The position numbers were made by a program, and so were the translations under genes. The notes below the pieces were generated by a model that worked only from the letters and a program-made list of their open reading frames with translations, made no database searches and was not told the DNA's origin. 64,000 bases of DNA from Gemmatimonadaceae bacterium (GTDB taxonomy: Bacteria > Gemmatimonadota > Gemmatimonadetes > Gemmatimonadales > Gemmatimonadaceae): contig JANYIN010000163.1 in NCBI GenBank assembly GCA_025362035.1, positions 62,001 through 126,000 on the forward strand, written 5' to 3'. Numbering within the stretch: position 1 is the stretch's first letter; each line of letters opens with the position of its first letter. Shown here one piece after another: positions 15,405 to 19,313 of this stretch.

Positions 15405-16982
15405 TTACCCCCCGACGCGCTGCGGTGACTTCAGCGCGGGCAGCGTGGAGTCGGGAGCGGCCGTTTCGCGCAGTCCCTTGAGCGCGCGCATGATGGCGAA
15501 CGCGACGCGACGCAAGCGGCCGTTCGCGGCACGCACGCCACGGATGGTGCCGTAGTCGCCCGCTTCCGACACGATGAGCCCCTTGATGGAGGGTCGGCTG
15601 GTGGCCCAGGCCAGCGCATCCCATACCGCCCGCTCCTGGCTGGCTTCACCGTGCGCTTCAGGAAAGCCGCCGGAGGCAAAGATCCAGTGGTCCTTCATCG
15701 AGCCGGACTCGCGCATCCATCCGTCGGCGGCATGCCGCGCGGCGTCCAGGGTGATAGTGCCCGACGCCGAGGGATACAGCGAAAAGCCCGGGACGTCTAT
15801 CGGTGAGCCCGCTGCCGCAGCCCAGGCGTACAGCGTACTGTCACGGCGGTCGTAGGCCGATGCGGTCACGCCAATGCGCACCTTGCGATCCGCGCGTTTG
15901 GCTTCGGCGGCGGCATGCGTGAGGTACGCCTCCCAGAACTGCGGCGGATGTGATCCTGCGGCGCGGGTGCCTGACTCGTACGGATCCTCCGCCGGCAGCA
16001 GAATGTCCGGGTGCAATCGCCGCACGATGGGTGCGATGCTTCGCAGCCTTTGGATCTCGCTGAACCTGCGCCCCACGAATGGCAGCATGCTCGACTCATA
16101 GCCCATCGTCACGATCAACTGCGTGCTGTCGCTGCGCAGGAGCTCGAGGGTGTGCGCAATCGAATCCAGCGCCGATCGATCCATCAACTCGGGAATGAGC
16201 GTTACGCTCACGACCGTCACGCCAAGGCTGTCGGTCAACGCCAGGTCGTTCTTGATCGCCACGGGCGGGGGGCCGCCGTCGAGATCGGGAAAGATCTTCA
16301 GTCCGACGTCGAAGTCGCTGGCGGGGCGCTCCTGGAGACGTTCGGTATTCGTGTCATGGCCGTTGTACGAGGCGACCGCCTTGTCCGCGGTGGTGAGTTG
16401 CGAGAGGATGAACACGACCCACACCAACGCCACGATACCCAGAAACAGACGAAAGCTCGCCGCTGACCGATGCAGCGCGGGGAACGCGGGCGCGGTCATC
16501 GGCACGAAGAGGAAGAGCGGAGATCCGATGATCGTCGGCGATTGAGCGGCCAGCGCGAAGGCGGCACTCGTGGCGGCGAGAAAGATGAGCGCACCGTCCG
16601 GCAACATCGCGCCGCGAGACGCAGCATAGCGCAGGATCGCGTCAACGGCGATGACGAGATCGTAGAGTGAGATGAAGAAGCCAAGAAACGGATTCACCAG
16701 GCGGCGGTGCGCCGCATACAACGCCTGCAGCGCGAAGAGCCCCAGGGTCAACGGCCACAGCCAGTCGATCGCCGACACGGAACGTCCCGTGATCGCGTTC
16801 GACAGGGCAAGGTGAATCACCAATGCCGGAAGCAGGAGGAACCCAGCGAGCGCGCTGATGAACACGAACGGACGCGGCAGCGTCGCGCCCTGGACCTGGG
16901 AGATCCGTCCCGTCAGGACGACGTCCCAGATGACGATTACTGCGAAGAGCAGCAGGTGCAGGACCGGTAGCAGAGCAGTCAT
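15405..16982 (-). CDS. Polytopic membrane protein with C-terminal glycosidase-like (TIM barrel-like) domain
   Basis: N-terminal ~7 hydrophobic segments; C-terminal ~250 aa with DILLPAEDPYESG...GVTASAYDRRD...IDVPGFSLYPS...IKGLIVSEAGDYG. Confidence 0.7.
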   Translation of the reverse strand: MTALLPVLHLLLFAVIVIWDVVLTGRISQVQGATLPRPFVFISALAGFLLLPALVIHLALSNAITGRSVSAIDWLWPLTLGLFALQALYAAHRRLVNPFLGFFISLYDLVIAVDAILRYAASRGAMLPDGALIFLAATSAAFALAAQSPTIIGSPLFLFVPMTAPAFPALHRSAASFRLFLGIVALVWVVFILSQLTTADKAVASYNGHDTNTERLQERPASDFDVGLKIFPDLDGGPPPVAIKNDLALTDSLGVTVVSVTLIPELMDRSALDSIAHTLELLRSDSTQLIVTMGYESSMLPFVGRRFSEIQRLRSIAPIVRRLHPDILLPAEDPYESGTRAAGSHPPQFWEAYLTHAAAEAKRADRKVRIGVTASAYDRRDSTLYAWAAAAGSPIDVPGFSLYPSASGTITLDAARHAADGWMRESGSMKDHWIFASGGFPEAHGEASQERAVWDALAWATSRPSIKGLIVSEAGDYGTIRGVRAANGRLRRVAFAIMRALKGLRETAAPDSTLPALKSPQRVGG

Positions 16983-16983
16983 T

Positions 16984-17331
16984 TCAACCGCGCTTTCGCG
17001 TTTCGCTGGCCACTTCCGTTGGCGCCAGGCGACGCACGAACACGTCCAGTGCTTTCACCGCGCCCGCGTTCTCGCGCGCGATCACGTCCACGAGCGCGAG
17101 CCTGCGCTCCGGAAACGAATGGATGCTCAGATGGCAGGGGTCCACGGGCAACAGCGCCGAGATGCCGCCTGACGGCGAGTGGCGCACAATCGGCGCGCCC
17201 ACCGCCTGCAGCCCACCGGCCCCCGCGGCGGCGATGAGCAGTCCCGCCAGCATCGCGGTATCGCGCAATGCGCCCGTGCCCACGCCCGAGAGCTCGGCGC
17301 TGACGTGAAAGAGGCTTTCAGGATCCGTCAC
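16984..17331 (-). CDS. S-adenosylmethionine decarboxylase (SpeD)-family protein, divergent
   Basis: FHVSAELSGVG...LLIAAAGAGGLQAVGAPIVRHSPSGGISALLPVDPCHLSIHSFPERRLALVDV follows SpeD FSPxGVS...ESHxxIHTWPExxxAxVDV; GTG at 17331. Confidence 0.75.
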   Translation of the reverse strand: MTDPESLFHVSAELSGVGTGALRDTAMLAGLLIAAAGAGGLQAVGAPIVRHSPSGGISALLPVDPCHLSIHSFPERRLALVDVIARENAGAVKALDVFVRRLAPTEVASETRKRG

Positions 17332-17335
17332 GACG

Positions 17336-18757
17336 TTACGGCCGCGCGACGGCCGTGGCCGCAGCACGCGCCGGCTGCCCCGCCGCCCGAGCAAGGGAAC
17401 GATGACCGCTGTCGCCCACCGTGCGCACGGCGGCCCATCCGTCGTCGAGCTGGAAGGAAAGCCGATGCGAGGTGTCGGTGCCGACCGGAATGACGCGCTC
17501 CCAGGACGGCGAGGTCGTGCGACGAACCAGCACTTCGTAGCCCAGCGCGCCGGGCACTGGTGCCCAGCTCAGCGTCCATGATTGTCCACCGGACACAACA
17601 CTCTCACGCCTCGCCACCACCGAATCCGGTGACGGCGGAGCAGTGGCGAGGGCGACCAGCGTGGCGGCATTGAGCCGAGCAATCTGCGCGATGTACCCGA
17701 AATTCACGTGATCGAACGCGTCCGTGGAAAGGTGCTGGCGTTTGTAGTTCTCCAGTCGCTCCGTAAAGCGAAGTCCGGGCCAGCCCGCCGCGATATACGG
17801 ACTGTGATCCCCGCCGCGCCCAATCCGGTCCAATCGAAACACCGGAATGATCTCGAACGCCGGCAGATACACCGTGCCCAGCGCCCACACGTAACGGCCG
17901 AGTTCGCGACTGCCAGACGTGTCCGGGTCGGTGGCGTAGATGCGCACGCTCGTGGAGTCGACCACACCGTCCTCCGCCACGACGTTTCCAATGATATCGT
18001 CGGTCATACCGGCGATCACTTGCTTTCCATTCCTGGTCAGCCGCTGGGCCAAACGCGTGGCTCCGAGCAGTCCCTGTTCCTCTGCGGCGTGCAGCACGAA
18101 CACGATCGTCGCGTCCAGGCCCCTTGGATAGCGGTGTGAAATGACGCGCGCCAGCTCCACGACCGCGGATGTGCCGGATCCGTCGTCATCCGCGCCGGGA
18201 GCGAAACTCGTCGAATCGACTCCGCCGTTTGGCGTCACGCTGCACACGCACGAGTCGTAGTGGCCACCGAGGACGATGACCCGGTTGGTGTCGCGCCCCG
18301 GCAGAATAGCCAACACGTTCACGATGTTCGCGGGGAGATGCTGCGGATGGCGCTGGACCGCAACAATCGCGGCGTCATACTCGACACGGAGACAGCCGTC
18401 GCACTCACGACTCGTCTGCTGCAACTGCGCGAACAGCCAACGCCGCGCCGCACCAATGCCGCGCGTTGCGGAGAGCGTGTCGGAAAAGGTGTTTCGCGTC
18501 CCGAACGACACGAGCGCCGAATCCGTGGCGCGAATGCGCGCCGGCGAGACGTCGCCGAGCAGTGCGGCGATTGCCGGATCTCGCGCGAGTCCCATGCGCG
18601 GATCCCCAAGCCATCCCGAGGTGGCGGGGATGATTGCGACATTGCCGCCAGGCGACACACCAACGGTAGTGGTCGTCGTGGCGGAGCTGCACGCGGCCGT
18701 GGCCAGCGCAGCCACTCCGGCAAGTACTGTGAAGCAGAAGCGAAAAATCCGCATCAT
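17336..18757 (-). CDS. M28 family Zn peptidase lipoprotein with C-terminal FN3-like domain
   Basis: LATAACSS lipobox; GGHYDSC, APGADDDGSGT, HAAEEQGLLG metal-binding motifs; C-terminal WTLSWAPVPGALGYEVLVRR. Confidence 0.88.
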   Translation of the reverse strand: MMRIFRFCFTVLAGVAALATAACSSATTTTTVGVSPGGNVAIIPATSGWLGDPRMGLARDPAIAALLGDVSPARIRATDSALVSFGTRNTFSDTLSATRGIGAARRWLFAQLQQTSRECDGCLRVEYDAAIVAVQRHPQHLPANIVNVLAILPGRDTNRVIVLGGHYDSCVCSVTPNGGVDSTSFAPGADDDGSGTSAVVELARVISHRYPRGLDATIVFVLHAAEEQGLLGATRLAQRLTRNGKQVIAGMTDDIIGNVVAEDGVVDSTSVRIYATDPDTSGSRELGRYVWALGTVYLPAFEIIPVFRLDRIGRGGDHSPYIAAGWPGLRFTERLENYKRQHLSTDAFDHVNFGYIAQIARLNAATLVALATAPPSPDSVVARRESVVSGGQSWTLSWAPVPGALGYEVLVRRTTSPSWERVIPVGTDTSHRLSFQLDDGWAAVRTVGDSGHRSLARAAGQPARAAATAVARP

Positions 18758-18848
18758 GGAATGGGAGGCATTGGAGTTCCCGCGTAAGATGGCAGGAGCA
18801 CGCCCATTCCGCATCGCCGATCGCCGCGTGAACGGCGCGACGACGGAC

Positions 18849-19313
18849 CTAGAACATCGACATGGCGAGGAACGATCTCAGTGAGTCGTTCGTGTTCCGC
18901 AACCGGCCGCTGAGAAGGCGCGTCACCGACCAGAGCACCTTGTAAGCCATCTCGCGATTGAAATCGAGCAGCATCTCAAAATCGGGCCGCGTGATCGTGA
19001 GCACGGTAGTGCCGCCGTTCGAGATGGCATGGGTGGACCGGTCGCTCCGATCGAACACGGCCATTTCCCCGAAAAGCGCGCCCGGCTTCAGGACCGCCAG
19101 CGCCTCTTCTCCGCTGCCCGGCACGTCTCGTGAAATGCGGACTTCGCCCTCGACGATGAGATAGAGGCGGTTGCCGGATTCCCCTTCCCGAAAAATGTAT
19201 TCGCCGCTGACGAATTTCTCCTCGCGGCACACCTCTGCGATCTCATCGAGTTCGGACTCGTCGAGGTCCTTGAAGATGGCGACGTTCTTCAGCAGAGCGA
19301 TGGTGTCGGGCAT
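18849..19313 (-). CDS. Cyclic nucleotide-binding domain protein
   Basis: FREGESGNRLYLIVEGEVRI...GALFGEMAVFDRSDRSTHAI cNMP-binding fold. Confidence 0.88.
   Translation of the reverse strand: MPDTIALLKNVAIFKDLDESELDEIAEVCREEKFVSGEYIFREGESGNRLYLIVEGEVRISRDVPGSGEEALAVLKPGALFGEMAVFDRSDRSTHAISNGGTTVLTITRPDFEMLLDFNREMAYKVLWSVTRLLSGRLRNTNDSLRSFLAMSMF

Follow-up and report, generated by a model that had tools for sequence, protein, structure and literature searches.

Gene organization at the locus

The window, that is, the whole stretch of 64,000 nucleotides of Gemmatimonadaceae DNA that was analysed, carries a short gene related to speD, the gene for AdoMet decarboxylase (AdoMetDC), in a tight row of genes read from the minus strand. 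The genes and codons considered here are the following:

15405..16982, minus strand: membrane/TIM-barrel gene, downstream, 1 bp past the stop of the SpeD-like gene; 525 aa, ATG start, membrane helices at the N-terminus and a TIM barrel resembling those of glycoside hydrolases.
16984..17331, minus strand: SpeD-fold pseudoenzyme gene; GTG start at 17331, stop at 16984-16986, 115 aa (from PF02675, the structural model and homologues).
17074..17076, minus strand: Arg86 codon, aligned with the catalytic Cys83; Cys in 0/59 relatives.
17119..17121, minus strand: His71 codon, equivalent to His68 of T. maritima; His in 54/59 relatives and Arg in 5.
17131..17133, minus strand: His67 codon, equivalent to His64 of T. 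maritima; unchanged in 59/59 relatives and in 24/24 active-type SpeDs.
17134..17136, minus strand: Cys66 codon, aligned by HMMER to Ser63 of T. maritima SpeD, the residue that forms the pyruvoyl group.
17336..18814, minus strand: M28 peptidase gene, upstream, 4 bp from the start of the SpeD-like gene; at this place in some relatives only.
18849..19313, minus strand: gene of a cyclic-nucleotide-binding (cNBD) protein (PF00027), next upstream of the M28 gene; 154 aa, single-domain.

The neighbours named in a previous sequence-only reading, an M28 peptidase and a membrane/TIM-barrel gene, are right and all lie on the minus strand, and no speE gene is adjacent at the window locus, as had also been stated; the peptide, described there without a strand, is encoded on this one from 17331 to 16984. 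The protein encoded at 15405-16982 has no counterpart by sequence in Pfam, NCBIfam or the PDB, its TIM barrel is structurally closest to glycoside hydrolases (beta-glucuronidases, PslG), and among the relatives searched it is confined to the window's own family. The cNBD protein shows 67-92% identity across the order where it is present and is clearly more conserved than its neighbours; in several relatives its gene immediately adjoins the SpeD-like gene.

Family membership and predicted fold

The protein encoded at 16984-17331 is a genuine SpeD relative with the AdoMetDC fold, which bears out the SpeD-like assignment made earlier. It matched PF02675 over the full length of the profile with 56.9 bits (E 3.1e-15, cut-off 25), and the same family was matched by 29/29 relatives (E <= 0.001). 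The score against TIGR03330, the AdoMetDC equivalog, was 50.5 bits, under the cut-off of 75.65. The AlphaFold2 model (mean pLDDT 95.9) found its best PDB matches in the bacterial SpeDs 2iii, 1tlu, 1vr7 and 1tmi, with TM 0.88-0.89 at 1.3-1.4 A (TM 0.89 to 1tlu); it fits the AdoMetDC fold, the point on which the sequence-only reading had made its assignment depend. The next structural matches were human spermine synthase 3c6k (TM 0.6) and then eukaryotic AdoMetDC. Against a library of viral structures, the top matches were all SpeD-like proteins of phages, none of them nearer than the SpeDs of the PDB.

Active-site residues in the clade

HMMER alignments with Aquifex 2iii and T. maritima 1tmi/1tlu place Cys66 on Ser63, Pro65 on Glu62 and Arg86 on Cys83, and in the same alignments His67 and His71 fall on His64 and His68, both histidines being retained. 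What had been read from the letters alone, namely a Cys at codon 17134-17136 instead of the self-cleaving Ser, a Pro instead of the preceding Glu, a kept His in the IH motif and an Arg in the column of the missing TCG Cys, was correct at each of these sites.

Residues were counted in 59 distinct sequences of the clade and in 24 active-type SpeDs (ESH motif) from the same phylum, with T. maritima numbering. Position 63 is Cys in 31 of the relatives, Gly in 25, Ala in 3 and Ser in none, and Cys is absent from the Cys83 column in all of them (0/59); Glu62 is retained in 5/59 and Glu72 in 14/59. His64 is found in 59/59 and His68 in 54/59 (Arg in the other 5), and Asp82 is conserved in the clade, at a position where active SpeDs have either Asp or Asn. 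E62, S63, H64, H68 and E72 are each present in 24/24 of the ESH-type proteins. A sequencing error, which ESH in the orthologues would have indicated, or a local oddity is ruled out, since ESH occurs in 0/59 and Ser63 is missing from 59 distinct relatives. On the tree, position 63 has switched at least 7 times within the clade; Cys is constant there inside the genus of the window protein, and the residue just before it varies. In one subclade (L107, L108, L115, L158 and L159) His68 is changed to Arg (CHITLRTLP) and the last processing residue is gone.

By acyl shift and elimination, a pyruvoyl group is unobtainable without Ser63 or, at best, a Cys in its place. The sequence-only reading had suggested altered processing, possibly to a Cys-derived pyruvoyl, together with a new function. 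If Cys63 replaced Ser in this chemistry, the protein would be an active pyruvoyl decarboxylase with a new substrate, and the Cys of the window protein, constant within its genus, would agree with this, as would the processing-site His68 in 54/59. However, a Cys-derived pyruvoyl is improbable because members of the clade have Cys, Gly or Ala interchangeably (at least 7 changes), and in 28/59 sequences position 63 offers no side chain capable of processing; Cys83 and Glu62 have been lost, and 1tmi, the S63A structure of the T. maritima enzyme, is titled in the PDB as a non-processing mutant. S63, H68 and C83 have been stated to be essential for processing (PMC10407285). The parts of the earlier proposal that stand are the loss of Ser63 and Cys83 and a function that must differ from that of AdoMetDC. 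Slow processing of the Cys forms (31/59, the window protein included) could in principle take place; loss of catalysis in the clade is well supported.

The two histidines bear on a further alternative, a non-pyruvoyl enzyme of another kind, for instance metal-dependent, that would work through His64 and His68. The former is constant and the latter nearly so although the pyruvoyl chemistry is gone, and the retained pair could sustain some residual chemistry. Nevertheless, both are equally constant in active-type SpeDs (24/24) and may thus be retained to maintain the fold, 5 members carry Arg in place of His68, and no third conserved ligand is evident beyond Asp82, itself Asp/Asn in active SpeDs, so that such an enzyme is unlikely.

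Distribution and selection

The gene is present in 10/10 sampled genomes of the genus and in 29/60 relatives, the absences being soft because most of these genomes are metagenome assemblies. When 399 genomes of the phylum were searched with the profile, strong matches (E 6.4e-27 or lower) were confined to two families within a single order. The next ones came only after an abrupt fall, at E 1e-17 and weaker, and those of their proteins that were read are of the ESH type. In a tree that omitted the active-site columns, the 59 relatives make up one side of a branch with a support of 91/98, to be taken as good and not final in view of the 103 columns and the long branches. A DNA-pattern scan of a second collection returned named records almost all from Gemmatimonadota, several of them Gemmatimonadaceae; its patterns came from one genus, and outside the phylum it does not imply absence elsewhere. 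The Gemmatimonadota gene row also occurs in a record (L173, on the contig of G236:C1) whose title is Candidatus Kuenenia stuttgartiensis, so that either the assembly or the name given to it is probably mistaken.

The active-type SpeD that scores nearest to the dead family (L128-L133, from another order of the same class) shows an unusual motif, ESHFAIHTYPE...DIVSCA, and adjoins a spermidine-synthase-like gene. It was considered as a missing link and discarded: ESH and Cys83 are kept, its chromosomal place is another one, and the tree puts it with the active SpeDs.

Pairs of at least 83% identity gave dN/dS values of 0.05-0.18, almost all of the roughly 95 strong matches from the phylum search have an uninterrupted frame, and L22, D24, G40, P47, H67 and V97 are unchanged in 29 aligned members. 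The gene is under purifying selection. A functionless, decaying remnant would account for the loss of the catalytic residues save the histidines, and also for the clean absence of the gene from two genomes (G026 and G029), in which the cNBD and TIM-barrel genes are direct neighbours, but the open frames, the dN/dS well below 1 and the constant residues all argue against decay, to which we assign very little probability.

Conservation of the gene row

With genes placed by homology, 27 of 28 loci show the row M16 - (TIM-barrel membrane) - SpeD-like - (M28) - (cNBD) - CDP-alcohol phosphatidyltransferase, in which the bracketed genes are variably present; at the remaining locus (G048) the SpeD-like gene was found at the expected place by profile. 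The site is the same in two families and vertical inheritance is therefore concluded. The gap between the cNBD and TIM-barrel genes of G026 and G029 is about 90 bp and leaves no room for the SpeD-like gene, which can therefore be lost cleanly. The tight row suggests co-expression. The TIM-barrel membrane gene was also considered as an obligate partner, which is unsupported: within the family, the presence of the two genes is not associated (20/3/10/3, Fisher p 0.65), and gene order therefore hints at co-expression and not at an obligate complex.

Polyamine genes in the host genomes

The genome of the window (93% complete) yielded neither a dedicated SpeE nor an active-type (ESH) SpeD, its SpeE-like domains being confined to open frames that are 843 and 1044 aa long; it does encode a full-length SpeA, the PLP arginine decarboxylase (796 bits), which is also present in 42/60 relatives and in 25/29 of those carrying the SpeD-like gene. 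A dedicated SpeE-type synthase is found in 8/60 genomes, all 8 with an ESH-type SpeD, and 23/29 genomes with the SpeD-like gene have none; the ESH-type SpeD co-occurs with the SpeD-like gene in 7/29 genomes, the other 22 being without it. Carboxyspermidine decarboxylase, from the other spermidine route, gave nothing over cut-off in 37 genomes. The SpeD-like gene does not track a dedicated spermidine synthase, and from the distribution of SpeE, SpeA and ESH-type SpeD it follows that the protein neither belongs to the SpeD-SpeE route nor is required for arginine decarboxylation. In G038:C95 (locus L042), from a genome without dedicated SpeE, there is a second SpeD homologue of the ESH type, which is larger (WAESHAAIHTWDE...FSC).

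Recruitment to another decarboxylation, also put forward in the sequence-only reading, would make the protein a pyruvoyl-dependent ornithine or arginine decarboxylase (SpeDC/SpeDA), a class for which a SpeD homologue without SpeE is the criterion (PMC10407285). Yet these SpeD-derived enzymes depend on pyruvoyl and keep S63, H68 and C83, held to be essential, and the genomes that encode them lack canonical SpeA/SpeC (PMC10407285), whereas S63 and C83 are gone here and the host has SpeA. With no pyruvoyl able to form and a full-length PLP SpeA in the host, this recruitment has hardly any probability.

A prozyme-like activator of the trypanosomatid kind, a dead paralogue that turns on an active SpeD by heterodimerising with it, has its precedent in the T. 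brucei prozyme (PMC5201418), and the 7/29 carriers that also have an ESH-type SpeD would offer a partner. But 22/29 carriers, the genome of the window among them, have no active-type SpeD, and where both exist the dead gene and the active one lie at unlinked places. Such a role does not fit because most hosts are without an active SpeD, and it is regarded as very improbable.

Proposed role and significance

The best explanation, to which we give a probability of about 0.75, is a catalytically dead SpeD-fold protein of one origin, inherited vertically at one site and kept for a non-catalytic task. The protein would form no pyruvoyl cofactor, would not cleave itself and would not decarboxylate. 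The family descends from a single origin, as the tree indicates, and vertically at one chromosomal site in two Gemmatimonadota families, as their gene rows indicate, and purifying selection maintains it, presumably for the non-catalytic task. Retirement to a non-catalytic role is probably what took place, and a binding or scaffold role can be proposed. Most likely it would be a small protein, probably a dimer, that binds a ligand or serves as a scaffold by means of the old SpeD pocket, and the tight row with cNBD and membrane TIM-barrel genes might hint at an envelope or signalling role over polyamine synthesis. More tentatively, and with somewhat less than even probability, the AdoMetDC fold without its pyruvoyl chemistry may act on its own within an envelope/signalling row, either as a scaffold or as a sensor, with AdoMet, nucleotides and polyamines as examples of what it might recognise.

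Annotation based on PF02675 can label such proteins as AdoMet decarboxylase, so that genomes are credited with a step of spermidine synthesis that is most likely missing from them. The natural Cys, Gly and Ala variants at position 63 offer a probe of how the AdoMetDC fold is used after the loss of self-cleavage. A search of open-licence PMC papers turned up no bacterial SpeD pseudoenzyme that stands alone, extends through a whole clade and has no active partner.

Comparison with known systems

Class 1b SpeDs (T. maritima 1tlu/1vr7/1tmi and Aquifex 2iii) resemble the window protein in whole-chain fold, PF02675 membership, His64/His68 and length, and differ in that Ser63, Glu62 and Cys83 are absent here, identity is 22-25% and the genome of the window has no SpeE. 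SpeDA and SpeDC are likewise SpeD homologues without SpeE, but they form a Ser-derived pyruvoyl and decarboxylate Arg or Orn (PMC10407285), whereas Ser is lost clade-wide here and SpeA is present. The C-terminal SpeD domain of Lentisphaerota fusions, such as that of Victivallis vadensis, is also without active-site residues and self-cleavage (PMC10407285); that dead domain is fused to an active SpeD domain, unlike the separate gene described here, whose genomes mostly have no active SpeD. Loss of self-cleavage is also thought to have occurred in the C-terminal half of eukaryotic AdoMetDC (PMC10407285).

The trypanosomatid prozyme and ADL are non-self-cleaving, evolutionarily retained relatives of AdoMetDC too, and AdoMet and putrescine binding has been reported for L. 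donovani ADL (PMC5201418, PMC3686867). These proteins belong to the eukaryotic class 2 and partner an active AdoMetDC, in contrast to the present family. Neither they nor the Lentisphaerota domains are the same thing as the protein of the window, because both act with an active partner that is lacking in most genomes here. Human spermine synthase 3c6k, which matches the model at TM 0.6, offers another SpeD-like fold without pyruvoyl, in this case as a domain of a synthase, whereas the window protein stands alone. The SpeD-like part of 3c6k is its N-terminal domain, which serves dimerisation.
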